Assembly: GCA_030446805.1 (NCBI GenBank)
Contig: JAUJMO010000003.1
Location: 124,001-188,000, forward strand
Reading direction: 5' to 3'
Origin: Caulobacteraceae bacterium
GTDB taxonomy: Bacteria > Pseudomonadota > Alphaproteobacteria > Caulobacterales > Caulobacteraceae
Length of the DNA: 64,000 nucleotides
Below, in pieces: positions 6,255 to 62,023 of this stretch (positions are counted from its first letter, which is position 1; every line of letters begins with the position of its first letter). Position numbers and translations under genes: made by a program. Under the pieces are notes generated by a model. It saw only the letters and a list, made by a program, of their open reading frames with translations, had not been told where the DNA came from and made no database searches.

Positions 6255-6274
6255 GGCCCCGGCGCCGCCCTTCG

Positions 6275-6866: not shown

Positions 6867-7754
6867 TCAATCCTCAAAAGCCGCTGAGGTGATCCGGCCG
6901 TCGGGGAACAGCGCCGCCCGCTTCATCCCCTGGCTGTTGTACGGCATGGCGATCCGTCCGTCCCGGTCCACGGCGATCAAGCCGCCGTCTCCGCCCAAGG
7001 CGCCGACCGATCCGATCGCCGCCTCCGCCGCCGCTGAGAGGTCCTGCCCCGCCCAGCGCAGCCGATGGGCCACCTGCACGGCGGTCGCGGTGCGCAGGAA
7101 GAACTCGCCGCTTCCCGTTGACGACACGGCCACCTGATCGTCCGCCCAGGTCCCCGCGCCGATCACCGGGGTGTCGCCCACCCGGCCAGGCATCTTATCG
7201 AACACGCCTCCGGTCGAGGTGCCGGCCGCCAGCCGCCCGTCCCGGTCCAGCACCGCACAGCCCACCGTGCCGTGCGTCAGCCGCGCCCCCGTGGCGTGAT
7301 TGTCCTCATCCGCGCCGGCGTGGATGAACCAGTCACCCGGCTCGCCCGGGATTGGCTCCATGTCCTGCTCGCCCGCGAACATGGCCGCGCCTTCGCCGGC
7401 CAGCAGCACATGATGCGTCCGTTCCATCACCGCCCGAGCGGTGCGTACCGGGCTTATAAAGCCCTGCAGCGCGGCCACGGCCCCCGCCCGAGCCGTGGGC
7501 CCGTCCATCAGGCTCGCGTCCAGCTCGTAGCGCCCGGCGGTGTTGGGCGAAGCGCCTCGCCCCGCGACATATAGGCCCGAAGCCTCAAGCTGGGCGATCG
7601 TCTCCACCACCACGTCCAGCGCCGAGGCCCCTCCGGCCAGCCGGTCCCGCCCGGCCTCGACCAGCCTGCGCATGTGCGCCACCTCGACCGAATAGTCCCG
7701 CCCTCTCTGGGCGCCCGCTCCGCCGTGCAGCACGAGTGCGAACCTGTCCGCCAT
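6867..7754 (-). CDS. iaaA: Isoaspartyl peptidase/L-asparaginase (Ntn hydrolase)
   Basis: 295 residues. LVLHGGAG near the start and [20 protein letters not shown] in the middle identify plant-type asparaginases; autocleavage before Thr163 would create the nucleophile. [12 protein letters not shown] and [10 protein letters not shown] complete the active site. It hydrolyses isoaspartyl dipeptides and asparagine, so it repairs or recycles damaged protein. Its position just upstream of hslV hints at shared protein-quality control, though this is inference. Confidence 0.9.
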
Positions 7755-8012
7755 GGTGTCTCTCCGGCTGGTGTGGGCCGGCTCCCATGCGCCAGCGTCC
7801 GCCCCTGTTCAACCCTGCACCCACTGGAGCGCTGCTCAACCACACCTCCGCCAAGGCGATCCGCCGTCCCGAAGCTCCCGAAGAGAACGGCGCGCGCGTT
7901 GCTCTCCAAAGGAGGTCTCGCTACATGCACGCTGTCCCGCGAGGTTCCGCCCCGCCCTTCCACCGCTTCGCGGTCCCGCTCCCCCGCAAGCGGGTGGGGA
8001 ACAACGGCCCCC

Positions 8013-9887: not shown

Positions 9888-9912
9888 CCCCTAGGGAAGG
9901 AGGGCCGGCTCC

Positions 9913-10326
9913 CTATTCCCCCATTCGCTGCAGCAGGTTCTTGGCCGCATCCTTGTGCTTCGGCTTCACGCTGCGGCCGACCACGTTCATAAGCGCGAAC
10001 AGCACCGCCGCATCGTCGGTGAAGCCCAGGCCGGTGATGATGTCCGGGATTGCGTCCGCCGGCATCACGAAATAGGCCAGCCCGGCCAGCATCAACCCCT
10101 TGCTGCGCAAGGGCGTGTCCTCGTCACGGGCGCTGAAATAGACGGACAGCAGGTCCTTGGCGAAAGGCACCTTGGTGGCCACCCGCCGGAACTTGGGCCA
10201 GAACCCCTGCTGCACCCGCAGCTCGTTCACCCGCACCGTGGCCGGCACCAGCGCCTTGGACGGGTCCAGCGCCGCCCGGGGGTCGAACTCGGCCGTGGAG
10301 CCGCTTGTGTTGGAATGCTCGCTCAT
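9913..10326 (-). CDS. YkvA-like DUF1232 protein
   Basis: 137 residues from ATG 10326. The DUF1232 core is plain: KDLLSVYFSARDEDTPLRSK, then GLMLAGLAYFVMPADAIPDI and TGLGFTDDAAVLFALM, a membrane-associated hairpin with the signature 'Y-x3-P-x-D-x-I-P-D'. A polar N-terminal extension of about 40 residues precedes it. Function unknown. A longer start at 10362 is possible but would overlap the divergent SDR promoter. Confidence 0.85.
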   Translation of the reverse strand: MSEHSNTSGSTAEFDPRAALDPSKALVPATVRVNELRVQQGFWPKFRRVATKVPFAKDLLSVYFSARDEDTPLRSKGLMLAGLAYFVMPADAIPDIITGLGFTDDAAVLFALMNVVGRSVKPKHKDAAKNLLQRMGE

Positions 10327-10373
10327 GGTGCGTAAACCCCTGGCGTCGTCGTTCCGCTCCACAAGGATATAGT

Positions 10374-11156
10374 ATGCGCCTGTCGCCTGACATCGCCGCC
10401 GTCGTCACAGGGGCGGCCTCCGGCCTGGGCGAGGCCACCGCCCGCGCCCTGGCCGCCCAGGGCGTGCGCGTGGCCATCTTCGACATGAACCGAGAACGCG
10501 GCGAACAGGTGGCCGGCGAGATCGGCGGGGTCTTCTGCCCGGTGGACGTCACCGGCGACGACAGCGTGGCGCGCGGCTTCGAACAGGCTCGCGCCGCCCA
10601 CGGCCCCGAGCGCATTCTGGTCAACTGCGCGGGCATCGCCATCGGCCAGAAGACCGTGGCCCGCGACAAGCAGACCGGGGATATCCGCGCCCACGACCTC
10701 ACCGCCTTTGAGCGCGTGATCCGCATCAACCTGATCGGCAGCTTCCGCTGCGCCGCCCTGTCCGCCGCCGGCATGATGACGACGGAGCCGCTCGAAGACG
10801 GCGAGCGCGGCCTGATCGTCTCCACCGCGTCGGTGGCCGCCGACGAGGGCCAGATCGGCCAGGCGGCCTACGCCGCCAGCAAGGGCGGGGTGAAGGCCAT
10901 GGCCCTGCCCATGGCCCGCGACCTCATGGGCGAGGGCATCCGCGTCAACACCATCCAGCCCGGCATCATGCTCACCCCCATGATGGCCGCCATGCCCCAG
11001 AACGTGCAGGACGCGCTCGCCGCGGCCATCCCCTTTCCGAAACGCCTGGGACGGCCTGAGGAGTACGCCAGCCTGGTCCTGGAGATGGCGCGCAACTCCT
11101 ACCTCAACGGCGAAAGCGTCCGGTTGGATGGGGCGATCCGGATGGGGCCACGCTAG
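10374..11156 (+). CDS. Short-chain dehydrogenase, HSD10/3-hydroxyacyl-CoA dehydrogenase type II-like
   Basis: 260 residues. Cofactor motif TGAASGLGEA, NAG in VNCAGIA, catalytic Ser in STASVAADEGQIGQ and Y-x3-K in YAASKGG. The layout (CPVDVTGDDSV, the long insert before INLIGSFRC, then GIMLTPMMAAMP and PFPKRLGRPEEYA) is that of bacterial 3-hydroxyacyl-CoA / 2-methyl-3-hydroxybutyryl-CoA dehydrogenases. An AAGGA ribosome-binding site precedes ATG 10374. Substrate assignment is by family only. Confidence 0.85.
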   Translation: MRLSPDIAAVVTGAASGLGEATARALAAQGVRVAIFDMNRERGEQVAGEIGGVFCPVDVTGDDSVARGFEQARAAHGPERILVNCAGIAIGQKTVARDKQTGDIRAHDLTAFERVIRINLIGSFRCAALSAAGMMTTEPLEDGERGLIVSTASVAADEGQIGQAAYAASKGGVKAMALPMARDLMGEGIRVNTIQPGIMLTPMMAAMPQNVQDALAAAIPFPKRLGRPEEYASLVLEMARNSYLNGESVRLDGAIRMGPR

Positions 11157-11225
11157 GGTCTGTTGATGTTCATCGCGAGTGGATCACCGCGGTGGCGAGA
11201 TGGATCATGCTCGTTCCCCCTTTCC

Positions 11226-11372
11226 GATCTCCCCGGCGGAAGCCGGGGTCCAGGTTGCGGGGGAACCCGAGCGTCTCGACCCGGCGGGCGAGACTCGCAG
11301 CCCCCTGTCAGATCACCTCCGGCTGGGGCGCGGCGGCGGCGTGGGCCCCGGCTTTCGCCGGGGAGAGCGGGA
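11226..11372. repeat. Second inverted pair of the GC-rich intergenic palindrome
   Basis: Within the 374-bp gene-free stretch 11157-11530 lie copies at 11226-11253 (TCCCCGGCGGAAGCCGGGGT) and, on the other strand, 11343-11372 (CCCCGGCTTTCGCCGGGGAG). They match the pair at 3092-3188 in sequence and in their head-to-head arrangement. No protein-coding potential is visible in the stretch. Confidence 0.7.
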
Positions 11373-11496
11373 TTGGGGCGCCGGGGCCGGGGTGAGGGCC
11401 GTGCTGGCAAGCCGCCGCCGTTCAGGGCGAGGAGTCGGCGCGACGAGGCGGGCCGGGCGGTAGTGGGGCTGGCCGCCGTGTTCGACGAAAGGGAAA

Positions 11497-11523
11497 GGCC
11501 CCGCTCTCGCCGAGAACGGGGCC
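11497..11523 (-). terminator. Hairpin terminator after the CC0125-type lipoprotein gene
   Basis: GGCCCCG at 11497-11503 pairs with CGGGGCC at 11517-11523, with TCTC/GAGA extending the stem inside after one mismatch. On the minus strand the hairpin follows the stop codon at 11531 and is followed by a CTTTCCCTTTC tract. This suits a factor-independent terminator. Confidence 0.65.
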
Positions 11524-11530
11524 CCCTTGA

Positions 11531-12178
11531 TCAGTACCGGCGGGAGCCGCCCGGAGCCGGCTGCGCCGGCCGGGGGACGCGGGCCGAGAGGTTGGCGAAG
11601 ACCTCCCGGGCGTCGAAGGTCTGCGGGTCGCCCGTGCGCGGGCCGCGGCCCATGACGATCTCGGCCGTGGCTTCGTACTTGTCGATCTCGCGGATATCGA
11701 TGTCGTCGAAGAACGGGTCGTAGCCGAAGCCGAACCCGCCGCCGAACCGGCCGTAATGTCCGAACGGACGCCAGCCGAACCCCGGGCCGTAGGCGCGCCA
11801 GTAGGGGCTCCAGTAGGGATAGCCGCCGAACCGGCTGTAGCCGAAGCCTCCGTAGCCGAAGCTCGAGCCGAACCGGGGCGAGGCGCTGTAGCGCACGTCC
11901 CGCTCGGTGGCGCGGTTCACGGCGGTGAAGTGGTCGAACCCTTGCTGCAGGGTCAGCTCGGCCGCCCGTAGCAGCAGGGCGTCCTCCACCTGCTCGCGCG
12001 AGGTCACGGTGTTGCCGCTAAAGGTCACCCGCCAGCGGTTCTGCGTCAGCGGGGCTTCGGAGAAGCCGTTGACGGGCCCGCGGGCGGTCAGGGTGGCGGG
12101 TTGATAGGGGGTGGGCGTCGCGCAGGCGCTCAGCGCCGTGGCCGCCGCCAGAGCCCCCGCGATAATTAGGCGCTTCAT
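11531..12178 (-). CDS. CC0125/CC1285-type outer lipoprotein
   Basis: 215 residues from ATG 12178 (MKRLIIAGALAAATALSAC), with a clear lipobox LSAC. After YQPATLTARGPVNGFSE comes a compact domain (VTSREQVEDALLLRAAELTL) and a long Gly/Tyr/Phe/Trp-rich stretch at about residues 100-150, then DIDIREIDKYEATAEIVMGRG. This composition matches a lipoprotein family named after Caulobacter CC0125/CC1285. Function unknown. A perfect DnaA-box sequence lies 37 bp upstream. Confidence 0.8.
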   Translation of the reverse strand: MKRLIIAGALAAATALSACATPTPYQPATLTARGPVNGFSEAPLTQNRWRVTFSGNTVTSREQVEDALLLRAAELTLQQGFDHFTAVNRATERDVRYSASPRFGSSFGYGGFGYSRFGGYPYWSPYWRAYGPGFGWRPFGHYGRFGGGFGFGYDPFFDDIDIREIDKYEATAEIVMGRGPRTGDPQTFDAREVFANLSARVPRPAQPAPGGSRRY

Positions 12179-12214
12179 GGTTGCTCCTGAGAACTCCGGT
12201 GGGTGTTCCCGTCC

Positions 12215-12223
12215 TGTGGATAA
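12215..12223. promoter_or_regulatory. Single consensus DnaA box
   Basis: TGTGGATAA, the complement of the consensus TTATCCACA, lies 37 bp upstream of the lipoprotein start. It is isolated: no second box is seen nearby. It may be a DnaA-regulated promoter or chance. Confidence 0.35.
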
Positions 12224-12312
12224 GGACAATGGGACCGAAATTAACGAGTTCCAAGAGCCTGAGGACGCCTGCGACAACTTAGTTGATCATCGCAGGCGGC
12301 CCCGGCGAGCCG

Positions 12313-12588
12313 TTAGTGCAGAGTCCCGATCTCGCCCGCGATCCGCACCCGCGGCGCCTGCACGACGCCCTCCGCCGAAAGGGTGACCGAGTGGATCACC
12401 GCCTCGATCTCGCGGCGCCAGAACTGCAGGAACCGGTGCACGCGCGGATAGTCGGGCGCGAGATCCAGCGTCTGCCAGGTGAAGCGCTGCAACAGGTTCG
12501 GATGGTCCGGCATGTAGTAAAGCACCTCCGCCGTCGTCAGCCGCTCCCCGCGCAGCCGCCGCTCGAACTCGCTCATCGCCTCAGTCAT
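12313..12588 (-). CDS. usg: Usg family protein
   Basis: 91 residues. FERRLRGERLTTAEVLYYMPDHPNLLQRFTWQTLDLAPDYPRVHRFLQFWRREIEAVIHSV is characteristic of Usg, a small soluble protein found almost only in alphaproteobacteria and first described upstream of trpF/trpB in Caulobacter. No biochemical role is established. An AGGAGGAG ribosome-binding site precedes ATG 12588. Here it stands after a LysE exporter rather than beside trp genes. Confidence 0.9.
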   Translation of the reverse strand: MTEAMSEFERRLRGERLTTAEVLYYMPDHPNLLQRFTWQTLDLAPDYPRVHRFLQFWRREIEAVIHSVTLSAEGVVQAPRVRIAGEIGTLH

Positions 12589-12650
12589 GGCCCTCTCCTC
12601 CTGGCCTCCACCGTCAGGGAACGCCCGGCTTAGTGAAAGAGCGGTGAACG

Positions 12651-13304
12651 TCAGTCGATCAGTCGCACCAGGATCAAGGCCGCCACCGTCAGCAGCAAGG
12701 CCCCCACGAACAAGCCGACTCCCCGCCGGAACGCCGGCCGCTGCATCTGCGACGTCAACGCCGCCCCGCCCAGGCCATAGGCGGTCATGAAGACGATATC
12801 CAAGCCCAGGGTTCCGGCCGCAAACAGCAGCAGCTGCGGCGCGACCTCCCGCTCCGCGTCGATGAAAGGCGGCAGCACGGCCGTGAAGAAGAGCAGCACC
12901 TTGGGATTGGCGATCTGCACCGCGAATCCACCGGCGAAGGGCGATCCCAGCCGCCGTTTCGGCGCGCCGTGCGAGCCGGCGACCGAGGGCTGATCCGGTT
13001 GCGGCTTCAGCGCGCCCCTGATCGACTGCACCCCAAGCCAGGCCACATAACCGGCGCCCGCGACCGAGAGCCAGCGGAACACCCCCGGGTAGGCCGCGAA
13101 CAGCGCCGACAGCCCCAGCGCCGCGCCGGTGAACCAGACGATCATGGCGATGTTGATCCCCGCCACGCCTTGAAGGACCGCTCGCTTGCCGCGCTCCACG
13201 CCCTGCGCAACGGCGTAGAGCACCGCCGGTCCTGGCGTCATGGCCATCACGGTCATGGCGATCAGGAAGGCGCCGTACAGCTTGGGATCGACAGGAAGGG
13301 TCAC
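12651..13304 (-). CDS. LysE/RhtB-family amino acid exporter
   Basis: 217 residues with about six transmembrane helices. The N-terminal signature MAMTPGPAVLYAVAQGVERG is diagnostic of LysE/RhtB exporters; FAVQIANPKVLLFFTAVLPPF is the second conserved block. Members export amino acids or homoserine lactones; the substrate here is unknown. GTG start at 13304. It ends 62 bp before usg. Confidence 0.88.
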   Translation of the reverse strand: MTLPVDPKLYGAFLIAMTVMAMTPGPAVLYAVAQGVERGKRAVLQGVAGINIAMIVWFTGAALGLSALFAAYPGVFRWLSVAGAGYVAWLGVQSIRGALKPQPDQPSVAGSHGAPKRRLGSPFAGGFAVQIANPKVLLFFTAVLPPFIDAEREVAPQLLLFAAGTLGLDIVFMTAYGLGGAALTSQMQRPAFRRGVGLFVGALLLTVAALILVRLID

Positions 13305-13334
13305 ACGGGCCGCCGAAGAGGAGAGGGCGGCGAC

Positions 13335-14108
13335 CTACACGCCTCGGCCGCCCGCGATCAAGGCGGCCCGCTCGGCGGCGGTGATCGGCCGCCAACGCCC
13401 TTCGGGCAGGTCGCCCAGCGCGAGCGGCCCGACGCGGATGCGGAACAGGTCGAGCACGCGCAGCTCCACCAGCTCGCACATCCGGCGGATCTGCCGGTTG
13501 CGCCCTTCGGTCAGCACGAAGCGCAGCCGCCCGTCGGGCTCCACCCCCACCTGCGCCCGCCTGAGCTGCCGTCCGTCGAGCCGCAGCCCATAGCGCAACA
13601 GCCCCAGCTTGCGCCCGGTCACGGCGCCCTCGACCTGGACCAGATACTCCTTACTCAGGGTCGACTCCGGGCCGATCACCGCCTTGGCCGCCACCCCGTC
13701 CTCGGACAAGAGCAGCAGCCCCCGCGAGTCCATGTCGAGCCGACCCAGCGGCGGCAGGCTCCGCTCCGGCCCGGGAGCCTCCGCCGCGCCGCCCCACAAC
13801 CGATCGGCCGTCAGGAGCTGCGCCGCCTCCGTCTGACTCCGCTCCGGGTGGGCGGAGACCACGCCCACGGGCTTGTGCACCATCACCGTCAGGGCGTTGG
13901 ACAGCTCGGCCTCGGCGTCGTCCGCCAGCAGGAGCAACTGCCCCGCCGCGATCTTCCGTCCCGGGTCGTCCACACGCTCGCCGTTGATTGAGACCAGCCC
14001 GCGCGCGATCAGGGCCTCCGCCTCCCGGCGCGAGCACACGCCGCTCTGCGCCAGCCACCGATTGACCCGCTGCGGCTCGGCCTCCTCATAACGACGGCTC
14101 CAGGACAT
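13335..14108 (-). CDS. rRNA pseudouridine synthase (RsuA/RluB/RluF family)
   Basis: 257 residues. An N-terminal S4 RNA-binding domain (VNRWLAQSGVCSRREAEALI) precedes the synthase domain. The catalytic Asp is in GRLDMDSRGLLLLSEDG; SKEYLVQVEG and LTEGRNRQIRRMCE are family blocks. It isomerises a uridine in rRNA. Which position is modified cannot be told; the overall pattern is nearest the large-subunit enzymes RluB/RluF. Confidence 0.88.
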   Translation of the reverse strand: MSWSRRYEEAEPQRVNRWLAQSGVCSRREAEALIARGLVSINGERVDDPGRKIAAGQLLLLADDAEAELSNALTVMVHKPVGVVSAHPERSQTEAAQLLTADRLWGGAAEAPGPERSLPPLGRLDMDSRGLLLLSEDGVAAKAVIGPESTLSKEYLVQVEGAVTGRKLGLLRYGLRLDGRQLRRAQVGVEPDGRLRFVLTEGRNRQIRRMCELVELRVLDLFRIRVGPLALGDLPEGRWRPITAAERAALIAGGRGV

Positions 14109-14190
14109 GGCCGCTTGTCGCCTCGTGTTGAGCGGCCTTCAAGAGGCCGCGCCCGGCTGCTAGCCAGGCGGGGTCGCGGAGGAGAGGGCC

Positions 14191-14262
14191 ATGACGCTTC
14201 GCGCACGCGTCCACGACGCGCTGGATCCGAACGACCGGCGCCTCACCGCGGCGGAGCCCTAG
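14191..14262 (+). CDS. Possible 23-codon leader ORF upstream of the phosphoesterase
   Basis: An ATG at 14191 is preceded by GGAGGAGAG at a good distance and opens a 23-codon frame (MTLRARVHDALDPNDRRLTA, then AEP) ending in TAG at 14260-14262. Four nucleotides later comes the TTG from which the phosphoesterase must start. The phosphoesterase TTG has no ribosome-binding site of its own, so its translation may depend on re-initiation after this peptide. The peptide itself resembles nothing I know. Confidence 0.4.
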   Translation: MTLRARVHDALDPNDRRLTAAEP

Positions 14263-14266
14263 CGCC

Positions 14267-14749
14267 TTGGTCGTCTTCTTCACCAGCGACAGCCACTTCG
14301 GCGACCACCGCGTACTCAACATCGGCAAGCGCCCCTTCGCCTCCACGGCGAAGATGGACGAAGCTCTTCTCGCGAACTGGAACGCGCTCGTCCAACCTGG
14401 GGACGAGGTCTGGCACCTCGGCGACTTCGCCCGGACGGCCAAGGCGGCGGCCGCGGTTCTCCCCCGCCTGCACGGCCGCAAACACCTCATCATCGGCAAC
14501 AACGACCCGCCGGGCGTCGTCGCGCTCGACGGCTGGGCCGACACTGCGGCCTATGTGGAGCTCGAAGTGGAAGGGACCCGCCTCGTGCTCTGCCACTACC
14601 CCTTCCGGAGCTGGAACGGCATGGCTCGCGGCGCGCTCAACCTGCACGGCCACAGCCACGGCCGGCTCAAGCCCATGCCCCGACAGTTTGACGTCGGCGT
14701 CGACGCCCGGGGCTTCAGGCCGGTCCGCCTCCATGAACTCCGGGCGTAG
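14267..14749 (+). CDS. Calcineurin-like metallophosphoesterase
   Basis: 160 residues. Metal-binding motifs are in order: TSDSHFGDHR (D-x-H), WHLGDFAR (GD), IIGNNDPP (GNND in place of GNHD), CHYPFRSW and HGHSHG. It is of the small bacterial phosphodiesterase type. The start is TTG 14267; no ATG or GTG is available upstream in frame. The 3' end overlaps the convergent carbonic anhydrase gene by 35 bp. Substrate unknown. Confidence 0.85.
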   Translation: MVVFFTSDSHFGDHRVLNIGKRPFASTAKMDEALLANWNALVQPGDEVWHLGDFARTAKAAAAVLPRLHGRKHLIIGNNDPPGVVALDGWADTAAYVELEVEGTRLVLCHYPFRSWNGMARGALNLHGHSHGRLKPMPRQFDVGVDARGFRPVRLHELRA

Positions 14750-15482
14750 CGCGGCCGACCGGCTGGGCTATGTCGAAGAAGTCCACCGCGCCGTCGTCCA
14801 GGTCGTAACGCGCGCCTACGATACGGAGCCGGCGTTCGGCCAGCGGACGCAGCAAGAGCGGCTCGGACGCGGTGCGAAGGCGGTCCACCGTGCGTGAGAC
14901 ATTGCGTCGGACCGCGTTGTCGAGCAGGTCGCCGTGGTCGCGCTTGGCCTGGAGCACGGCCGGCACGATGGGCTCGATCATCTGGCCGATGGATCCCGGA
15001 TAGATGGCGTTCTTCTCCACCACGGCCACCGCCGCCTCGACGGCGCCGCAGCGTTCGTGGCCCATGACCACCACCAAGGGCACGCCGAGCTGGGCGACCG
15101 CATACTCGATCGAGCCCAGGGCGGTGGTGTCCACCGTATTTCCAGCGTTGCGCACGATGAACAGCTCGCCCAGCCCGCGCCCGAAGAGCAGTTCGGGCGG
15201 CACTCGGCTGTCGGAGCAGGACACCAGCACGGCGAAGGGCGCCTGGCTCCGGGCCAGCTCCAGCCGCCGCATTCGTCCCGTCACACTGCGAACGGGACTG
15301 TCGGTGACGAAGGATCGATTGCCGTCGATCAGGGTCTGCAGCGCCTGATCCGGAGTGAGCGTGGTGCGCGGCGTCGTGCTCGACGCAAGGGCCGGCCGGC
15401 GCGTCAGGGCGGCGGCGGCGGGCGCACAGCAGGCGCAGGCGAAGAAGGAGCGGCGGGACAGGGCGGGCACTAGGGTCTCCAT
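14715..15482 (-). CDS. Beta-carbonic anhydrase with N-terminal export signal
   Basis: 255 residues. Zinc ligands are in SCSDSRVPPELLFG (Cys, Asp) and GHERCGAVEAA (His, Cys). The start METLVPALSRRSFFACACC followed by an Ala-rich stretch and ALAS looks like a Tat-type signal (S-R-R-S-F-F), so the enzyme is probably periplasmic. It interconverts CO2 and bicarbonate. Its last 11 codons overlap the phosphoesterase gene on the other strand. Confidence 0.9.
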   Translation of the reverse strand: METLVPALSRRSFFACACCAPAAAALTRRPALASSTTPRTTLTPDQALQTLIDGNRSFVTDSPVRSVTGRMRRLELARSQAPFAVLVSCSDSRVPPELLFGRGLGELFIVRNAGNTVDTTALGSIEYAVAQLGVPLVVVMGHERCGAVEAAVAVVEKNAIYPGSIGQMIEPIVPAVLQAKRDHGDLLDNAVRRNVSRTVDRLRTASEPLLLRPLAERRLRIVGARYDLDDGAVDFFDIAQPVGRATPGVHGGGPA

Positions 15483-15645
15483 GGGCGCATGCAACCTCGG
15501 CTTAGAGGTCAAGGACGAGCATCCGATTAAGACGTCGCCGATCGCGCCTCTGGGCGGGCCACGGCCACCGGTCGACCGGCCGACCGTCGTTCGAACGGCA
15601 GCCGTGCCGGTTGCAGTCCACGGCGACCGGGTTCACACGGCGCCC

Positions 15646-16902
15646 ATGACCCGCCCCGATCCTTCCGAGCGCAACCCGCACCCCGGGCTGGGCTTCAAGG
15701 CTTTCGTCGCCCTGGTCGCGTCCATGATGGCGATCAACGCCCTGTCCATCGACGCCATGCTGCCCGCGCTGCCGCAGATCGGCGAGGCGCTGGGCCTGCC
15801 TGAGGCGAACGACCGGCAGTGGGTGGTCACGGCCTACCTCCTGGGCTTCGGCCCGGCCCAGTTGATCTATGGACCGCTGGCCGACCGGTTTGGGCGCAAG
15901 CCCGTCCTGCTGGCGGGGCTGGGCGCCTATACGGTGTTCACGGTCATCGCGGCCTTCGCCAATTCCCTGGAGACCATGATCCTGGCCCGGGTGCTGCAGG
16001 GCGCCGGCGCCGCCTCCACCCGCGTGCTGTCCGTCTCCATCGTGCGCGACTGCTACTCGGGCCGCCGCATGGCCCGGGTGATGTCCCTGACCTTCATCGT
16101 CTTCCTGGCGGCCCCCATAGTGGCGCCCACCCTGGGTCAGGTGATCGTGCTTTTCGCCCCCTGGCCCTGGATCTTCGGCGTTCTGGCCCTGATCGGCGGG
16201 GTGATCCTGGTGCTGGCGGCCCTGCACATGCCGGAGACCCTGAAGCCGGAAGCCCGCCGGCCCATCTCGCTGGCGGGCGTGCTAGGCGCCTTCCGCCTGG
16301 CGCTCACCACCCGGGCGGCGGTGGGTTACATGCTGGCGTCGACGGCCATGATCGGTGCCCTGTTCGGCTTCATCACCTCGGCGCAGCAGGTGTTCGCCGA
16401 CGCCTTGGGCGCCGAGCGCTGGTTCACCGCGGTCTTCGCGCTCGTGGCCGTGTTCATGGCGCTGTCGTCGCTGCTCAACTCTCGCATCGTCGAGCGGCTG
16501 GGGACCCGCCGCGTTTCGCACACGGCCTTGTTGGGCTTCATCGCTTTCGCCGCGACCCACGCCGCTGTGGCGCTGACCGGCCACGAAAGCCTCCTCAGCT
16601 TCATCCTGCTGCAGTCGGGCATGATGTTCTGCTTCGGGCTGGTGGGTTCGAACTTCAGCGCCATGGCCATGGAGCCCCTGGGCCACATCGCAGGCGCCGC
16701 CTCCTCCATACAGGGCCTGGTCACCACCACGGGCGGCGCCCTGATCGGCTTTGCGGTGGGCCAGCAGTTCAACGGCACGGCCGTCCCGCTCACCCTGGGC
16801 TTCACGACCTGCGGCTTGGCCGCCCTGCTGATCGTGCTGGTCACGGAGAAAGGCCGCCTGTTCGGGGCCGTCAATCCGATCCCCCAGAGTCCGGTCCGTT
16901 GA
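15646..16902 (+). CDS. MFS drug exporter, Bcr/CflA family
   Basis: 418 residues with twelve predicted membrane helices. DAMLPALPQIGEALGL, GPLADRFGRKPVLLAGLGAY (the MFS loop 2-3 motif) and RVLQGAGAASTRVLSVSIVRD are typical of the Bcr/CflA subfamily, drug/proton antiporters of the inner membrane. ATG 15646. It is divergent from the carbonic anhydrase gene with 163 bp between. Substrate unknown. Confidence 0.9.
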   Translation: MTRPDPSERNPHPGLGFKAFVALVASMMAINALSIDAMLPALPQIGEALGLPEANDRQWVVTAYLLGFGPAQLIYGPLADRFGRKPVLLAGLGAYTVFTVIAAFANSLETMILARVLQGAGAASTRVLSVSIVRDCYSGRRMARVMSLTFIVFLAAPIVAPTLGQVIVLFAPWPWIFGVLALIGGVILVLAALHMPETLKPEARRPISLAGVLGAFRLALTTRAAVGYMLASTAMIGALFGFITSAQQVFADALGAERWFTAVFALVAVFMALSSLLNSRIVERLGTRRVSHTALLGFIAFAATHAAVALTGHESLLSFILLQSGMMFCFGLVGSNFSAMAMEPLGHIAGAASSIQGLVTTTGGALIGFAVGQQFNGTAVPLTLGFTTCGLAALLIVLVTEKGRLFGAVNPIPQSPVR

Positions 16903-54727: not shown

Positions 54728-55378
54728 TTAGACAGCGTTCCAGCGGTTCACCGCCAGTTGGCGGCCGCCCCAGCTCAAGCTTTGCGGAGCCTCGGCCGAA
54801 GGGTCGAAGATGCGCACATTGAGCAAGGCGCCGTAGCCGCCGGACTGCTGGGGATCGATCCACCAGCCGGCGCTGGCGTCCCACAGCTTGACCTCGTCGC
54901 CGTCCACAGTGACCGCGCAGCCTTCGTGATAGATCACATCGCCGTCGATCCAGCCGGCGGGGACCTGGTCCTCGCCCCATTTGTGGCCCCAGTGGCGCGT
55001 CGCGTCCTCGCTGAACTGCTGGACGAACTGCGCCGGGCGGCTTTGCACGCCGCGCGCGGTGAACAGCTCTTGCGAGATCGCCTGGTGGGCGCCGCAGTCC
55101 AGCTTCTTGCGGCCAACCGCCTCGCACCAGTGCATGGGCCAAGGCGACGGTCCCCAGGGGTATTTTTTCGGCAGCCAGCGCGGGCCGGTCAGGGCCGCAG
55201 CGTCGCCCAGCTGGGAGAAGTCGTTGGCCAGCATCCACTCACGTGCAATCTCGCAGCAGGCCTGGCCGTGATGGGAGATGGTGGACGCCGGCCAGCTGTC
55301 CCACTTTGCGGTGCAGGAGGTGACCTCCGGGACCTCGGTCGCCTGGACGGCGCGGGTCTCAACCTCGGCCAAATACAT
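54728..55378 (-). CDS. Unknown protein with a possible transglutaminase-like Cys-His-Asp triad
   Basis: 216 residues from ATG 55378, overlapping the upstream fusion gene by 20 bp. No family is recognised with certainty. A candidate triad is Cys95 (LDCGAHQAISQELFTARG), His151 (DVIYHEGCAVTVDGDEV) and Asp167 (KLWDASAGWW), in the order and rough spacing of transglutaminase-like or papain-like enzymes. Trp is frequent (GPRWLPKKYPWGPSPWPMHW). No signal peptide. The coupling implies it acts on a substrate or product of the fusion enzyme. Confidence 0.6.
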   Translation of the reverse strand: MYLAEVETRAVQATEVPEVTSCTAKWDSWPASTISHHGQACCEIAREWMLANDFSQLGDAAALTGPRWLPKKYPWGPSPWPMHWCEAVGRKKLDCGAHQAISQELFTARGVQSRPAQFVQQFSEDATRHWGHKWGEDQVPAGWIDGDVIYHEGCAVTVDGDEVKLWDASAGWWIDPQQSGGYGALLNVRIFDPSAEAPQSLSWGGRQLAVNRWNAV

Positions 55379-57617
55379 AGGACATGCTCCTGTCGTAACC
55401 GCCCGCGTCACAGAAAACGAGAACATCGCCGGCGCGCGTGCCTTCCGGGAGTTCGATATTGGCCGCCACCACGTCGTGCTCCATGCACAGGCGGCCCATC
55501 AGCTGGCTCTTGCCGCGCTTCAGAGTCTTCCAGTCGCCGCCCCGGTCCTGGGTCAGAACCCGGTGCGGATAGTGGAAGTACATCGGCAGTTCGGCGATGG
55601 AGGCGTCGACCACGGCTTCGGTGATCTCGCCGTCCTCCTCCTGGGTCTCCAGCACGCGCATGGCGAGCGCCATGGTGGGTTGGGCCATGGCCTTGCCGGG
55701 CTCGGAGATGATCTGACCGACGTTGGGCAGGGCGGCCTGGGCCCGCTTCACGGCTTTGGCGAAGTCGCTGTGGTCGACGTTGTGCCAGTCGTCGGGGAAC
55801 CAGCCGCCGCCGATGTCCAGCACCTCGATGGTGCGGCCGGTCAGCCGCTCCAGTGACTGGCACCAGCGCAGCATGGAGTCGAACAACCGCCACCACGCCT
55901 TCACCCCGATGTTGCTGCTGGCCATGTGGAAGTGGACGCCGAAGCCGGTGTCCTCCGGCAGGGTGGCGATCGACTCGACCAACGACTTGAAGGTCTCGGG
56001 CGTGTCCAGAGCGATGCCGAAGCGCGACGGGATGTGCGGGGTGCGGATGCGGACGCCCACGATCTTGGCCTTGAGCTCGCCGCTCTTCAACGCCGCCACC
56101 GTCTTTTTCAGGTCCGGGGCGGAGTCGCAGAAAACGGCGTGGATCTGCTCCTTGGGGATCATCCCTTCCGGCCACCATTTGCCGGGGCCGTTCAGAATGA
56201 GCTGGTCGGGCCGGAAGCCTACCTTCAAGGCCTTGTGCAGCTCCAACAGGCTGATGCCCTCGGCCATGAAGCCGGAGTCGAGCGCCAGCTTGATGAGGCG
56301 GGCGTCAGGATTGGTCTTGATGCTGTAGGCGTTGGTGACGCGAGTCTGGTTGGTGCTCAGCGTGTGCGCCATGGCGGCGGCGCGCTTGAAGGTATCAACG
56401 GCGGTGCTCTCCATGAACACCCAGGCGGGGGTCTCGATGCGGTTGAAGTCCTGTGCGAGCAGGTCCTCGACCATGGTGTTGGGAACGGTGGGCGCGTCGC
56501 CGCCGCTCGAACTTTCGTTGTCGCCGCCGTCCAGCACGTTCAGCTTGTGCAGGCGCTCGGCCAGGGCGGGCAGGCCGGACGGGTGTTTGAGCGAGTGACC
56601 CGCCCCGCCGCCCAGGTGTTCGGGCAGAGGCGGCAGCGGAAACTCCGAGCGCACCGGCACCTCGACCACAACCCGGGTGAACTCTCCACGGCCGGGCTCA
56701 GGCCGCTGCGCCGCTACGCCCGTAGCGCCTTCAACAAGCAAGGCGGGCAGGTTGACGCCGGCGATGGTCGCGCCATGAACCCAGGCGGGGAAGCGCGGGT
56801 TCATTTCGAGCAGCCAGAGCTTGCCGTCCGCGTCGCGGACCATCTCCAGCTCGCCGCCGCCGGTCCAGTTCAGCTCGTGGATGATGCGACGCAGCGGGGT
56901 GAGGAAGGCCTCGTCCACTTCGGAAACGTCGCCGGCCCAGGTCTTGCCTTCCTCGGTGATCTCCCGCTTGCGCATCCGCACACAGCCCAGCAGCTCGCCT
57001 TCGTAGGCGCACAGCATGACGGACTCTTCGTATCCGGTGACGTGCGATTGCAGGAACAGCCGTTCGGTGTTCCACACCTTGGCCAGCGCGTTGCGAACGG
57101 CTTCGAAGGAGTCCCACGAGCGGGTGCGCACGGCATCGTAGTACGGTCCCTTGAGCCACACCCGCCAGTCGTGCTTGCGGCAAAAGGCGTGCAGGTCCCA
57201 GTCCGAACGGTCGGTCGGGATATAGGGCGGGATCTGAACCGGCAGCCCTTCATGAGCCTCCACCTGCGGCTTGGTGATCCGCGCCAGGGCGGCGGCGTTC
57301 GGGGTCAGCAGATTCGCATGGCCTTCAGGGAAGACGCTGGCCAGCCACATGGACTCCAGGTCGCTGCCGGAGATCCAGAGGGCCCCGCCGTCCAGCAAGG
57401 CGCGGATGGCGTCGCCGTGAGCGGAAAGGTTCAGCTCGTCCCACGGACGCTGCAGCCAGACTTCGTCCAACTGGGGCCAGTGGATGCCCGAACTCCGGTT
57501 GGAGTATTCCACCCCCACCAGAGTCGCGTCGGGGTAACCCTGCCGCAACGACCGGGTGATGCCCACACCCGGCTGCGGATTGCCGCCGCTGTACAGGCCG
57601 CTAACGTATATCTTCAT
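55359..57617 (-). CDS. ATP-grasp ligase fused to a PLP-dependent (ODC/DapDC-type) decarboxylase
   Basis: 752 residues in one frame. N-terminal ATP-grasp, about 1-310: ITRSLRQGYPDATLVGVEYS, RVWLKGPYYDAVRTRSWDSF, LFLQSHVTGYEESVMLCAYE, and metal/ATP residues in LEMVRDADGKLWLLEMNPRF. A low-complexity linker (about 345-375). C-terminal fold-III PLP domain from about 385: Lys434 in YSIKTNPDARLIKLAL, GGGWFPDDW, LCMEHDVV (position of the active-site Cys) and CDAGGYDRSMSY. AAGGA precedes ATG 57617. Substrates unknown. Confidence 0.85.
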   Translation of the reverse strand: MKIYVSGLYSGGNPQPGVGITRSLRQGYPDATLVGVEYSNRSSGIHWPQLDEVWLQRPWDELNLSAHGDAIRALLDGGALWISGSDLESMWLASVFPEGHANLLTPNAAALARITKPQVEAHEGLPVQIPPYIPTDRSDWDLHAFCRKHDWRVWLKGPYYDAVRTRSWDSFEAVRNALAKVWNTERLFLQSHVTGYEESVMLCAYEGELLGCVRMRKREITEEGKTWAGDVSEVDEAFLTPLRRIIHELNWTGGGELEMVRDADGKLWLLEMNPRFPAWVHGATIAGVNLPALLVEGATGVAAQRPEPGRGEFTRVVVEVPVRSEFPLPPLPEHLGGGAGHSLKHPSGLPALAERLHKLNVLDGGDNESSSGGDAPTVPNTMVEDLLAQDFNRIETPAWVFMESTAVDTFKRAAAMAHTLSTNQTRVTNAYSIKTNPDARLIKLALDSGFMAEGISLLELHKALKVGFRPDQLILNGPGKWWPEGMIPKEQIHAVFCDSAPDLKKTVAALKSGELKAKIVGVRIRTPHIPSRFGIALDTPETFKSLVESIATLPEDTGFGVHFHMASSNIGVKAWWRLFDSMLRWCQSLERLTGRTIEVLDIGGGWFPDDWHNVDHSDFAKAVKRAQAALPNVGQIISEPGKAMAQPTMALAMRVLETQEEDGEITEAVVDASIAELPMYFHYPHRVLTQDRGGDWKTLKRGKSQLMGRLCMEHDVVAANIELPEGTRAGDVLVFCDAGGYDRSMSYVFGRG

Positions 57618-57872
57618 GGTTTCCTTGAGCGGCAGCGAAGAGCCGCAGCTTTGCGCAAGCTGCAGCAGCGATTCGAGTTGTACTTAAGCGTTGAGTCGGC
57701 TTTCCGACAGTAGGTGAGCCGCCGTCCGAGACGTAGCCGACTCCCCGTCGAAGATGAGGAACGTCCAACTCTCACATGAGTTCAAAGGGCGCCACGCCAG
57801 GCCGGAGAACCTCCCTCACTCCGAGCGGTGGGTTCGGAGACGAGCTTTAGGGCGCGCAACGAGAATGCGACC
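57618..57872. promoter_or_regulatory. Divergent promoter region of the fusion gene and the oxygenase gene
   Basis: 255 bp, the only region where both cluster transcripts can start. It is less GC-rich than the flanks, with GTCGG-cttt-CCGAC at about 57693-57706 and AACTC-n6-GAGTT near 57768 as short inverted repeats that could bind a regulator. No sigma consensus is certain. Confidence 0.4.
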
Positions 57873-58586
57873 ATGAGTAGCGGCGCGCTTTTCGAACAGT
57901 TGGATCCGCGGATCAGCTATCCCTCCTACAAGTCCTTCGACGAGTTCGTCGATGTCGACGCACTGAGAGCTCTGGACGGATATGTCCGAAGCCGCATCGA
58001 GCGACGCTTGGCCGCGGAGGAGGACCGGCGATTCTACACCGGGCCGTTCCTGCTAGATTCGTCCGCCGCCGAACTCCCCGGCACACGGATGATCTACTTG
58101 TCGCGTTCCACGCGGGCGGAGGACTACTACGATCTGGACAAGACCGACGTATGGGAGCCGACAGAAGCGGCGGAGGAGTTCTCGCTCTTGATTGACTTCA
58201 TCGCCACCCTGCCGTTCAGCCGCACCGGTCGGATGATGATCATCTATGACGACGTGGCCCGGCCGGTCTCCGCCCATCGCGACCACGACAGCACGGACCT
58301 TTGCCACGAGTTCGTGTGGTTCCGGACCAATCTGGACAAGCCCTTCTACATGCTGAATCCCAGGACGGGAGAGCAGGCCTATGTTCGATCCCATTGCGCC
58401 TGGTTCGATACGGTGAACCAGTTTCACGGGGGCGACGGCCGGGACGGCCTGACCTTCAGCATCCGTGTGGACGGCGTGTTCGACGACGCCTTTCGCGCCC
58501 GCATCCCCGTTCCGCAACACAATCGGGCGTCCACGCCGGCCTTATGGGCCGCCTTGGACAGGGCTCCAGCTAGAGCGCCTTCTTGA
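57873..58586 (+). CDS. Fe(II)/2-oxoglutarate-dependent oxygenase
   Basis: 237 residues. The iron triad is His135-x-Asp137 (SAHRDHDSTD) and His185 (NQFHGGDG); Arg198 in FSIRVDGVF would bind 2-oxoglutarate. The pattern 'H-x-D ... N-x-x-H ... x-I-R' resembles aspartyl/asparaginyl hydroxylase-like and amino acid hydroxylases. No signal peptide. ATG 57873 is preferred to a start at 57828. It is divergent from the ATP-grasp/decarboxylase fusion. Substrate unknown, probably an amino acid or peptide. Confidence 0.82.
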   Translation: MSSGALFEQLDPRISYPSYKSFDEFVDVDALRALDGYVRSRIERRLAAEEDRRFYTGPFLLDSSAAELPGTRMIYLSRSTRAEDYYDLDKTDVWEPTEAAEEFSLLIDFIATLPFSRTGRMMIIYDDVARPVSAHRDHDSTDLCHEFVWFRTNLDKPFYMLNPRTGEQAYVRSHCAWFDTVNQFHGGDGRDGLTFSIRVDGVFDDAFRARIPVPQHNRASTPALWAALDRAPARAPS

Positions 58587-58980
58587 GGAAGCACCGCGCG
58601 CTTCCGGGCGGGTAGTCGTCGATCTGGCCGAACAGGCGGTAGCCTTGCCGTTCGTAAAAGCCGCGGGCCTGGAATTCGAAGGTGTCCAGCCAAGCGCCCG
58701 TGCAGCCCCGGGCGCGCGCCTCCCCCTCCGCCCGCCGGAGGATGTCCGCGCCCAGGCCTCGCCTGCGCAAGGCCGCAGGCACATAGAGCAACTCGGTGAA
58801 CAGCCACCCGTAGGAGGTCACGCCCCACAAGCCTCCGGTGACCACCTCGCCTTCCTGGATAAGCACGGCGAGACGGCGCCACTCCCCGGGCCCGGCCCGC
58901 TCCGTGTTGAAGGCGCCGAGACCCGAGGCGATGACCTCGCGGGCACGGGCGTCCGGCGTTTCAGTGAGATGGATCTGCAT
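58570..58980 (-). CDS. GNAT-family acetyltransferase
   Basis: 136 residues. LLYVPAALRRRGLGADILRRAEGEARARG is the acetyl-CoA binding motif A (R-R-x-G-x-G/A); DTFEFQARGFYERQGYRLFG is motif B. The 3' end overlaps the oxygenase gene by 17 bp, tail to tail. Substrate unknown. Confidence 0.88.
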   Translation of the reverse strand: MQIHLTETPDARAREVIASGLGAFNTERAGPGEWRRLAVLIQEGEVVTGGLWGVTSYGWLFTELLYVPAALRRRGLGADILRRAEGEARARGCTGAWLDTFEFQARGFYERQGYRLFGQIDDYPPGSARCFLKKAL

Positions 58981-59153
58981 GCTTCACCTGAGCTGAGGCC
59001 GAGCACGATGGGGCCCGCCGCCTCAAGGAAGCGTAGCGGGCCGCTCGCCCCGGCGGGGCGGTGGAACGATCGGAAGGGGAGCGAGCGGATGCGCGCCGGC
59101 CAGACCTCCGGCCACCCGGCCATCCTTCACCGCAGGACCCTCGGAGGAGAAGG

Positions 59154-60269
59154 CTAGACCCGCAGCGGCATCAGCACGTATTGCGCGCCGGCGTCGGTGG
59201 GATCCAGCACAAGCGTGGGAGAACTGGGGTCGTTGAACTTGAACTCGGCGTTTTCGCCGCCGATCTGGCCCGCGACGTCGAGCAGGTAGCGGGCGTTGAA
59301 GCCGATTTCGAAGGGCTCGCCGTCGTAGTCGATCTCGACCTCCTCGACGGCCTGGCCGGCCTCCATGTTGCGCACGGTCAGGGTGACGCGGCCGGGCTCA
59401 AGCGCCAGCTTCACGGAGCGGCTCTTCTCGGCCGAGATGGTCGCGACCCGGTCGACGGCCGCGGCGAAAAGGGCGTTGTCGATCAGGGCGGTGCGCTCGT
59501 TGTTGCGCGGGATCACGCGGACGTAGTCGGGGAAGCTGCCGTCGATCACCTTGGAGGTGAGGGAGGCCTGGCCGAGTTCGAGGCGGACCTTCTGGGCGCT
59601 GACGGAGAGCTGGACGGGGCCGGTGACGCCGTCGAGGAGGCGGCGGATCTCGCCCACCGTCTTGCGGGGAACGATCACGCCCGGGGCGCCGACGGCCCCT
59701 TCGGGCGCCTCCATCTCGGCCAGCGCCAGTCGGTGGCCGTCGGTCGCGACCGCGCGCAGACGGGGCGCGCCGCCCTCGCTCACCGTGTGGAGATACAGGC
59801 CGTTCAGGTAGTAGCGCGTCTCCTCCGTGGAGATGGCGAAGCGGGTCTTGTCGATCAGGCGGGAAAGGTCGGCCGCCTCCAGCGTGATCGCGCCGCCCCC
59901 GTCGCGGGCCATGACGGGGAAGTCGCCGGCGGGCAAGACGGGCAGATGGTAGACGCCGCGGCCCGCGCGCACGGTCAGGCGGGGATCGTCGCCGGTGAAC
60001 TTGAGCTCCACGTCGGCGCCGTCGGGAAGCTTGCGGACGATGTCGTAGAGGTAGTGGGCCGACGCGGTGATCTGGCCGCCCGTGGACACCTGAGCCTCGG
60101 TTTCGTCGATGATCTCCATGTCGAGGTCCGTGGCGGAGAAGGACAGCGCGCCTTCGTCAGCCGAGAGCAGGACGTTGCTGAGAATGGGGATGGTGTTGCG
60201 TCGCTCCACGACGCTTTGCACATGGCCCAGCGCCTTCAGCAGCGCCGCGCGCTCAATCGTCAGCTTCAT
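59154..60269 (-). CDS. dnaN: DNA polymerase III beta clamp
   Basis: 371 residues. MKLTIERAALLKALGHVQSVVERRNTIPILSNVLL opening, FAISTEETRYYLNGLYLH, ATDGHRLALAEM, and the C-terminus TLVLDPTDAGAQYVLMPLRV are DnaN. The ring clamp holds replicative polymerase on DNA. It lies directly downstream of dnaA, with a terminator between; in Caulobacter crescentus dnaN is far from dnaA. Confidence 0.97.
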   Translation of the reverse strand: MKLTIERAALLKALGHVQSVVERRNTIPILSNVLLSADEGALSFSATDLDMEIIDETEAQVSTGGQITASAHYLYDIVRKLPDGADVELKFTGDDPRLTVRAGRGVYHLPVLPAGDFPVMARDGGGAITLEAADLSRLIDKTRFAISTEETRYYLNGLYLHTVSEGGAPRLRAVATDGHRLALAEMEAPEGAVGAPGVIVPRKTVGEIRRLLDGVTGPVQLSVSAQKVRLELGQASLTSKVIDGSFPDYVRVIPRNNERTALIDNALFAAAVDRVATISAEKSRSVKLALEPGRVTLTVRNMEAGQAVEEVEIDYDGEPFEIGFNARYLLDVAGQIGGENAEFKFNDPSSPTLVLDPTDAGAQYVLMPLRV

Positions 60270-60374
60270 CGGAGGTCCGTCGTGTTCATCGCGACACTAG
60301 CGGATTGTGCGGCGTGGGGAAGCGGGGGCGAGGGCGTGAGCCGGGTGTTTCGCCCACGGCGGGCCCGACTGTCA

Positions 60375-60408
60375 GGCCGGGGGAGGCGATCGTAGGCCGC
60401 CCCCGGCC
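60375..60408 (-). terminator. Hairpin between dnaA and dnaN
   Basis: GGCCGGGGG (60375-60383) and CCCCCGGCC (60400-60408) form a 9-bp stem 10 bp past the dnaA stop. It may uncouple dnaN from dnaA transcription. A GCTAGTGTC -10-like sequence follows at about 60280-60295 on the minus strand. Confidence 0.6.
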
Positions 60409-60418
60409 GACCCCGGCC

Positions 60419-61828
60419 TCACCCGCGCAGCTTGCGGCCGAGCGTCTCTACGTCCCTCGCCATGGCGGGGTCTTCGGTGATCATGCGTTCGATGGTGCGG
60501 ACGGCGTGAAGCACGGTGGTGTGGTCGCGGCCGCCGAACCTGCGGCCGATGTCAGGATAGCTCTTGGTGGTCAGGCTCTTGGCCAGGTGCATGGCGATCT
60601 GACGGGGGCGGGCCACGGCGCGGGTGCGGCGTTCGGAAAGGAGGTCCGCCTGTTTCAGGCCGAAGTGTTCGGCCACCAGCTTCTGGATTTCGTCCACGGT
60701 GACGCGGCGCTCGGCCCCTTTGAGGTGGGGACGCAGGATGGCCTGGGCTTCGTCCAGCGACAGGGTGGGCAGGCGGGCCTCCGCGCGCGCGAACAAGGTG
60801 TTGAGCGCGCCTTCCAGCTCGCGGACGGACTCGCTGAAGCGGTCGGCCACGAACTGCAGGACCTCGGGGCGGCCCTTGATCCCGTCCATCCCGCGTTGAC
60901 GGGCCAGTTGGTGGAGTTTGCGTTCGATGATGCCGACGCGCAGGGTCCGGTCGGCCGGCTCGATGCCGCAGACAAGGCCAGCCTGAAGGTGGGAGCGGAG
61001 ACGCGGCTCCATCTCCGCCAGGGCGGCGGGAGGGCGGTCGGAGGCCAGGACCACACGTTTGCCGTCCTCCATGAGGGCTGACAGGGTTTGTAGCAGCTCC
61101 TCCTGCGAGGAGGGCTTGCCGGCGATGAAGTGGACGTCGTCGATCAGGAGGAGGTCGGCCGAGCGAAGCTCTTCCTTGAAGCCGGCCGTGCTGCGATCCA
61201 TCACCGCGCGGACGAAGCCGGACAGAAAGCGTTCGGACGTCATGTAAAGCACGGTCTTGCCGGGCTGGGTGCGCTGGGCTTCCAGCGCCATGGCGTTCAG
61301 CAGGTGGGTCTTGCCGAAGCCGTAAGGGCCGTGGATCACCACGGGATTGAAGTGGCCGTCCGCCCAGGAGGCCACGGTGCGGGCCACCGAATGGGCGAAC
61401 TCGTTGCTGGGGCCCGAGACGAAGCTGTCGAAGGTCCAGCGCTCCTGCAGGCCGGAGGCGCGGCCGCGCACGGTCTGCACGGGGGCTTGGGCGACCACGG
61501 GCGCCGGCAGCGCGGGTTCGGCGGCGGATTCCAGGACCGCGCAGGCGGCGGCGTCGACCTCGGCGCGGCACTTCAGGTCCAGCGGGCGGTTCAGCGGATC
61601 GTTCGCGGCCCAGAGCTCGGCCACGCGGCGCGACGCGTTGCGGCGGATCCAGTCGCGCGCGAAGCCGGTGGGCGCGACCAGGGCCACGCGGCCGTCGCGC
61701 CCTTCCAGGACTGCGGCCTGGGCGAGCCAGGAGGCGAAGGCGTTTTCACCGAGTTCCTGACGCAGGGCCGCGCTGGCGCGCGCCCAGACTTCGCCCGGAG
61801 CAGCTGTGATTTCACGCGTCGCCGTCAT
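60419..61828 (-). CDS. dnaA: Chromosomal replication initiator DnaA
   Basis: 469 residues from ATG 61828. Domain III: Walker A GPYGFGKTHLLNAMA, Walker B LLLIDDVHFIAGK, sensor ASDRPPAALAEM, box VII SVRELEGALNTL. Domain IV DNA-binding: GGRDHTTVLHAVRTIE. The first two Walker residues (GPYGFG) differ from the usual GGVGLG but the GKT is intact. It opens the origin and is also a transcription factor. A strong promoter is at 62024-62051. Confidence 0.97.
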   Translation of the reverse strand: MTATREITAAPGEVWARASAALRQELGENAFASWLAQAAVLEGRDGRVALVAPTGFARDWIRRNASRRVAELWAANDPLNRPLDLKCRAEVDAAACAVLESAAEPALPAPVVAQAPVQTVRGRASGLQERWTFDSFVSGPSNEFAHSVARTVASWADGHFNPVVIHGPYGFGKTHLLNAMALEAQRTQPGKTVLYMTSERFLSGFVRAVMDRSTAGFKEELRSADLLLIDDVHFIAGKPSSQEELLQTLSALMEDGKRVVLASDRPPAALAEMEPRLRSHLQAGLVCGIEPADRTLRVGIIERKLHQLARQRGMDGIKGRPEVLQFVADRFSESVRELEGALNTLFARAEARLPTLSLDEAQAILRPHLKGAERRVTVDEIQKLVAEHFGLKQADLLSERRTRAVARPRQIAMHLAKSLTTKSYPDIGRRFGGRDHTTVLHAVRTIERMITEDPAMARDVETLGRKLRG

Positions 61829-62023
61829 CGTTCCCCTACCCACCGCTGCAATCACCGACCCCACCCCGACAACAAGCTCAACTGACGTTTCTTCCGGCGA
61901 CTTCTCGAACTCTGCACCAATTCCACCTACCGTTTGGACACACCTTTCCGAGGGCGGCGAACACCCGTCATGGTCGCCGCTTCTTTGATTTTCCGTGCTA
62001 AGCTGGAAGGCCGTTGGAGGGCC

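Follow-up and report, generated by a model that had tools for sequence, protein, structure and literature searches.

What would a bacterium make with an ATP-grasp ligase and a pyridoxal phosphate (PLP) decarboxylase joined in one polypeptide, and which of the adjoining genes belong to the same route? The question is raised by a locus at 54728-58586 of a 64,000-nucleotide stretch of a Caulobacteraceae genome (assembly GCA_030446805.1, contig JAUJMO010000003.1, positions 124,001 to 188,000; hereafter the window). An initial annotation had read the locus as an undescribed pathway of three genes, namely the fusion, a 216-amino-acid protein with a possible Cys-His-Asp triad, and a divergent Fe(II)/2-oxoglutarate oxygenase. 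On comparing the three genes across genomes, plasmids and viral records, we favour a two-gene unit that would ligate first and decarboxylate second, with a coupled cysteine enzyme and with the oxygenase as an accessory; we put this reading at somewhat short of an even chance.

A conserved pair of genes

The fusion gene (55359..57617, minus strand; 752 amino acids) was found in six genomes, and in all six the gene of the 216-amino-acid protein follows it directly (54728..55378, minus strand, in the window, where the two frames overlap by 20 nt). The six are the genome of the window (G000), a second genome of the same genus (G017), two related metagenome-assembled genomes of Alphaproteobacteria (L019 and L020), another member of the window's class (G395, locus L024) and a plasmid of Streptomyces zaomyceticus (L021). 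Locus L018 and G017 were counted once, the 216-amino-acid gene having the identical contig number and coordinates in both. Matches to the fusion were obtained in 236 of 249 family genomes at E 0.001; among the matches listed, coverage of its whole length was seen only in G000 and G017, and the other family matches listed were 24-30% identical and fell in the decarboxylase half (in L012 from residue 297). The profile of the 216-amino-acid protein matched 2 of 385 class genomes (G000 and G395), 1 of 398 phylum genomes (its own) and 1 of the 17 genomes in the family of G395 (G395 itself), and an exact-peptide-pattern scan of GTDB contigs returned L018, L019 and L020. Actinobacteria were sampled by plasmid records and the pattern scan only. 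Four phage records matched the fusion, in the decarboxylase half only (21-23%). The conserved core of the locus is a pair of genes, the fusion and the 216-amino-acid protein, and the pair is rare.

The contig end cuts the fusion in L020, where the 216-amino-acid homologue (1704-2345) is frameshifted after about residue 155, through either an assembly error or decay. A shared replication-gene neighbourhood was considered, the window pair lying by what we take to be dnaN and dnaA and the L019 pair by presumed recF and gyrB. It was rejected: none of eight neighbouring genes in L019 and three in L020 matched the window at 1e-6.

The two genes appear to be linked at the level of translation as well. 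Close to its 3' end the fusion gene contains an AGGAG, 8 nt upstream of the ATG of the 216-amino-acid gene, and the window, L018, L019 and L020 do not differ at any of the 35 nt around both (55369..55403, minus strand), despite a synonymous divergence of the fusion of about 0.85 between the window and L019. The same AGGAG-to-ATG arrangement occurs in L024, at about 32% identity of the decarboxylase; L021 has a four-base overlap of the pair instead and lacks this arrangement. From these features we infer that synthesis of the 216-amino-acid protein is coupled to that of the fusion. The embedded start signal is a possible reason why the fusion gene has a conserved end, and it argues for fixed co-production of the two proteins.

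Comparison with L018, from the window's genus, gave dN/dS values of 0.06 for the fusion, 0.08 for the 216-amino-acid protein and 0.24 for the oxygenase. All three genes are under purifying selection, loosest on the oxygenase. The low values indicate that the three open reading frames, whose coordinates agree with those initially annotated, are real genes and not chance frames, and they rule out a pseudogene or a locus in decay. A role in anti-phage defence was also rejected, as PADLOC gave no match for any of the three window proteins.

The ligase half of the fusion

The N-terminal half (approximately residues 1-350; 56568..57617, minus strand) scored 39.7 bits against the Pfam model ATPgrasp_Ter (PF15632; cut-off 29.1), and its profile matches in PDB were 8j4z, 2pn1 and 8evy. 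Ten chosen positions, among them Lys116, Lys156, Glu256, Glu258, Glu271, Asn273 and Arg275, were identical in all five aligned homologues. Lys116, Lys156, Glu258, Glu271 and Asn273 are presumably the Mg/ATP residues of the ATP-grasp fold (two lysines and a Glu...Glu-x-Asn pattern). By profile and residues this half is a predicted ATP-grasp ligase. The first step of the favoured route would be its ATP-driven coupling of a carboxylic acid with an amino acid that bears an amine.

The decarboxylase half and its substrate

The second half (approximately residues 391-752; 55362..56447, minus strand) contains PF02784 and PF00278, both above the Pfam cut-off, and carries Lys434, GGGWF at 603-607 and CDAGGY at 736-741. 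It was aligned with relatives in nine rows, five from fusions (window, L019, L020, L021, L024) and four from separately encoded partners of related ATP-grasp proteins, and was compared with seven rows of LysA. Lys434, His564, GGG603-605, Glu639, Cys711, Met712 and Tyr741 were kept in all nine; eleven of the 16 positions compared, whose roles are in part our assumption, were kept throughout, and 562, 642, 713, 714 and 743 varied. The residues and domains identify this half as a predicted PLP decarboxylase of the alanine-racemase fold, so the ATP-grasp/decarboxylase fusion of the initial annotation is borne out. It ends at FGRG, whereas the separately encoded relatives continue into a C-terminal tail. 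In four of the five aligned fusions the family motif EPGR is EPGK (residue 642; 55692-55694 in the window).

The residue after the catalytic cysteine was Met in 9/9 rows and Glu in 7/7 LysA rows, and the RPxxY of the LysA specificity helix, present in all seven LysA rows, was missing from the fusions and from the separate partners. The best NCBIfam match, the LysA equivalog TIGR01048, was sub-threshold (98.1 bits, far under the cut-off of 297.9). A tree of 16 decarboxylase sequences resolved the five fusions, the four separate partners and the seven LysA proteins as three groups, each with support 100/99, under a long-branch warning. With a separate LysA in the window's genome as well, a housekeeping LysA was ruled out. 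There is also the alternative that the decarboxylase half acts on a free basic amino acid, for polyamine or lysine supply, with the ligase domain only protecting the product. The half does belong to the LysA/ODC fold family, but the genome has its separate LysA, and other residues stand at the positions that read a free distal amine or diaminopimelate (DAP); we judge this alternative improbable. The free lysine, DAP, ornithine and arginine that had been suggested as assay substrates are unlikely on the same grounds, since the residues for a free distal amine and for the DAP carboxylate are those replaced.

A conjugated substrate fits better what is described for the N-citrylornithine decarboxylase FigC. 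The best PDB sequence match of the decarboxylase half was 7kh2, an N-citrylornithine decarboxylase. According to PMC7857480, FigC acts on a conjugated substrate, the acidic residue contacting the side-chain amine is replaced by M355, and the Arg of DAP decarboxylase (DAPDC; R343) is lost; the same paper considers clade homologues other than DAPDC or D-ODC more likely to serve specialised metabolites. R343 would correspond, in our mapping, to the Arg of RPxxY. The window, L019 and L020 carry Met712 and His714 as equivalents of FigC M355 and His357, the Cys-Met loop reading CMEHD in the window and CMQHD in FigC, and our mapping of the helix places Met679, His682 and Tyr683 of the window at T327, T330 and Y331 of FigC, with neither Asp nor Arg. 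The score against the FslC/FigC family NF041039 was 67.2 bits, under its cut-off of 500. The predicted active site is of the FigC/FslC kind, and the protein lies outside that family.

The Met after the catalytic Cys, as in N-citrylornithine decarboxylase, suggests that ligation comes first and decarboxylation second. Judging from its active site, the decarboxylase half would strip the alpha-carboxylate from the conjugate, with an acylated amine as the product; a free basic amino acid would not be its substrate. This order has a precedent in rhizoferrin synthesis, where FigA/FslA ligates the conjugate and FigC/FslC then decarboxylates it (PMC7857480). The rhizoferrin ligase is a separate NIS (non-ribosomal peptide synthetase-independent siderophore) synthetase, whereas that of the window is a fused ATP-grasp domain; the window pair also adds a Cys-His-Asp protein, and its decarboxylase half has no C-terminal tail.

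The 216-amino-acid protein

The proposed triad of this protein is supported by conservation: Cys95 and His151 were kept in 5/5 aligned homologues and Asp167 in the 4/4 that reach that far. The SHHGxACC motif of the family was kept in four of the five homologues and not in all, and is for that reason a less likely catalytic site. No match of significance was found in Pfam, NCBIfam or PDB, the only Pfam trace being a sub-threshold DUF7710 (E 0.098). The structure model is of low confidence (predicted local distance difference test, pLDDT, 56; predicted template modelling score 0.58) and places Cys95 at the start of helix 95-108, His151 in strand 148-159 and Asp167 at the end of strand 162-167. 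Foldseek returned 129 matches up to E 10, none of them significant (best E 0.12). Among the 50 listed, 45 were of the transglutaminase/arylamine N-acetyltransferase (NAT) type, many being entries of the same protein: 15 transglutaminases, 23 arylamine N-acetyltransferases, five of the amide synthase GdmF, one TglA and one protein glutaminase. The best VIA-align match was pseudomurein endoisopeptidase (Z 4.3, root-mean-square deviation 4.3, 94 residues), on a scale where Z 7 to 8 is usual even for models that match nothing clearly. The conserved residues and the faint but consistent fold signal hint at a transglutaminase/NAT-like Cys-His-Asp enzyme, which in the third step would form a thioester on its cysteine and so transfer or cleave the acyl group.

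A further alternative is a thiotemplated route. BtrJ of the butirosin route is an ATP-grasp enzyme, and the route has a cysteine acyltransferase; its combination of an ATP-grasp protein with a fold-III decarboxylase is similar in logic, a likeness of enzyme roles. By analogy with butirosin and closthioamide, the ATP-grasp half would load an amino acid onto a carrier protein, the decarboxylase would act on the thioester and the Cys protein would transfer the acyl group. Closthioamide, as described in PMC6772006, unites the same types of enzyme (CtaD, ATP-grasp; CtaF, decarboxylase; CtaJ, transglutaminase), again a likeness of enzyme roles, but its pathway has more genes, with two carrier proteins and an AANH thioamide enzyme. 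BtrK decarboxylates glutamate bound to the carrier BtrI (PMC7857480), whereas the window's contig has no carrier gene: PF00550 at E 0.001 found two carrier proteins in the genome, both on contig C1 and none on the window's contig C5, in a search that gave matches in 11 of 14 control genomes. An adenylation enzyme does lie upstream of the pair in L024. We regard a thiotemplated route as rather unlikely. By analogy, the nearest concepts appear to be FigA/FigC and closthioamide.

The oxygenase and other neighbouring genes

The divergent gene (57873..58586, plus strand; ATG at 57873; 237 amino acids) encodes a putative Fe(II)/2-oxoglutarate oxygenase. His135, Asp137, His185 and Arg198 of the initial annotation are present, and the HxD, His and Arg were kept in the three aligned sequences (93% and 54% identical). 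The only Pfam trace was a sub-threshold Cas9_b_hairpin (E 0.014, 15.6 bits against 25), NCBIfam, PHROGs and PADLOC gave no match, and the model (pLDDT 32) was unusable; the name is accordingly a motif-based one. The gap between the divergent genes (57618..57872, no strand) is poorer in GC than the window, as had been noted (0.608 against 0.697; 1.5% of 255-base windows taken at a step of 25 are equally low).

Homologues of the oxygenase were found in 3 of 199 family genomes (G000, G017 and G014) and in 1 of 190 class genomes (its own), and none was found in plasmid and phage records; among viral contigs, none of three candidate stretches was confirmed. Within the stretches around the other pairs, no match was obtained by tblastn (L019, L020, L024) or by phmmer against frames of at least 100 amino acids (L019, L020, L021, L024). 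The oxygenase stands beside the pair in two of the six genomes, G000 and G017, both of one genus. In G014 (L048) a 54% identical homologue occurs alone, with no relative of the ATP-grasp half or the 216-amino-acid protein in the surrounding 16.5 kb; that genome has no 216-amino-acid relative, and its match to the fusion does not exceed the level of a LysA.

These counts bear on the single dedicated three-step pathway of ligase-decarboxylase, Cys protein and oxygenase that the initial annotation had proposed. The divergent layout and the shared gap of low GC, which G000 and G017/L018 both retain, would suit such a pathway, but the stretches examined in L019, L020, L021 and L024 hold no oxygenase homologue, G014 has the oxygenase without the pair, and selection on it is looser. 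The fusion and the 216-amino-acid protein stood as adjacent partners; the oxygenase was rejected as a core member and is probably an optional neighbour. We hold a three-gene pathway to be unlikely.

Possible tailoring enzymes seem to vary by lineage, with the oxygenase in the window's genus and, in two other genomes, a gene of the desaturase family close to the pair. In L021 an FA_desaturase-family gene comes after the pair; in L024 the adenylation enzyme and a 575-amino-acid protein that no Pfam model matches are encoded upstream of the pair, and beyond them stands a divergent FA_desaturase gene. Downstream in L024 are a solute-binding protein (SBP_bac_5), a PhyH-like oxygenase and genes that we take to resemble the permeases and ATPases of SBP_bac_5 systems. 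The L024 pair stands within a larger putative cluster (2272-16117). Among the L019 neighbours, two of which were profile-scanned, no desaturase, adenylation, transporter or PhyH-like gene was seen. A GNAT gene (58570-58980, minus strand) adjoins the window locus, together with what are presumably dnaN and dnaA (58570-61864), and is also present in L020. Its linkage to the pair was rejected, as the GNAT gene occurs in 16 of 99 family genomes, 14 of which lack a full-length fusion.

Separately encoded relatives

With E 1e-20 as the upper limit, the profile of the ATP-grasp half matched 7 of the 385 class genomes. Two of these (G000 and G395) have the fusion and three (G283, G372, G255) a separate decarboxylase gene adjacent to the ATP-grasp gene; no decarboxylase was seen on the contig of G311 (only 4,093 bases) or in 17 kb of G491. 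G372 and G255, from two families of the window's class, share the order TPR, PqqD-like, tandem ATP-grasp, decarboxylase, urea-transporter-like/Sir2 (L042, 3562-8979; L043, 7117-12600). In G283 (L040, 1776-6472) the ATP-grasp and decarboxylase genes lie beside a urea-transporter-like/M23 peptidase fusion. A fourth separate pair was seen on a viral contig of 65.7 kb, not far from a gene for DNA polymerase, with PqqD-like, ATP-grasp and decarboxylase genes in a row (L026, 3405-5922). Its PqqD-like gene (3405-3665) matched PF05402 with 30.0 bits against 23.4, and its ATP-grasp protein had no match in phages and, among viral contigs, matched only itself. The four loci share with the window the ATP-grasp subfamily and the Met after the catalytic Cys, but they are unfused (with tandem ATP-grasp genes in L042 and L043) and have no homologue of the 216-amino-acid protein. 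This family was absent from G014, G283, G311, G372, G255, G491 and the viral record (7/7; the viral record may be a fragment).

In three of the four separate pairs (L042, L043, L026) a PqqD-like gene, of a peptide-binding kind, directly precedes the ATP-grasp gene; the PqqD profile of L042/L043 found none at E 1 or better in L040. Such genes would suit a route that modifies a protein or a ribosomal peptide: the ligase would extend a peptide tail by an amino acid, the decarboxylase would trim it and the Cys protein would cut or transfer the peptide. A peptide-nucleotide is the substrate of MccE, which belongs to the same clade of decarboxylases (PMC7857480). A PqqD profile found none at E 1 in frames of at least 40 amino acids from the window, L018, L019, L020, L021 and L024, a search that a divergent or distant gene could escape, and no precursor gene was identified, no systematic search for one having been made. 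We consider this alternative unlikely; the PqqD-like gene at the viral pair counts for it and against the two-gene unit.

Weighing of the two-gene unit

Several further observations join the PqqD-like genes, which point to peptide substrates in those loci, in speaking against the two-gene unit proposed here. The pair has been seen in six genomes, with the second gene frameshifted in L020, and the fold of the 216-amino-acid protein is faintly supported (pLDDT 56, Foldseek E 0.12, Z 4.3). The equivalent of His357 is Asn in L021 (CMEND) and Ala in L024 (CMEAD), and the specificity helix has a Glu in both and also an Arg in L021, so that substrates may differ by lineage. By their sequences, neither half of the fusion points to a particular acid or amine.

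A wider class may connect the fused and the separate genes, although we would put this joint reading at about one chance in three. It would comprise one ATP-grasp subfamily with conjugate-specific PLP decarboxylases, either fused and accompanied by a coupled acyltransferase (in proteobacteria and on the Streptomyces plasmid) or split behind PqqD-like proteins (in other bacteria and on the viral contig). The products, as yet undescribed, would be decarboxylated amides or peptide-tail amines. Literature searches returned no described pathway with this enzyme set, in agreement with the initial annotation.

If the two-gene reading is true, the pair would place in a single polypeptide the "conjugate, then decarboxylate" route known from rhizoferrin and butirosin, as a two-gene unit in two phyla. 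It would be a compact route to an amine metabolite, and the Met after the catalytic Cys would give a sequence rule for finding others.

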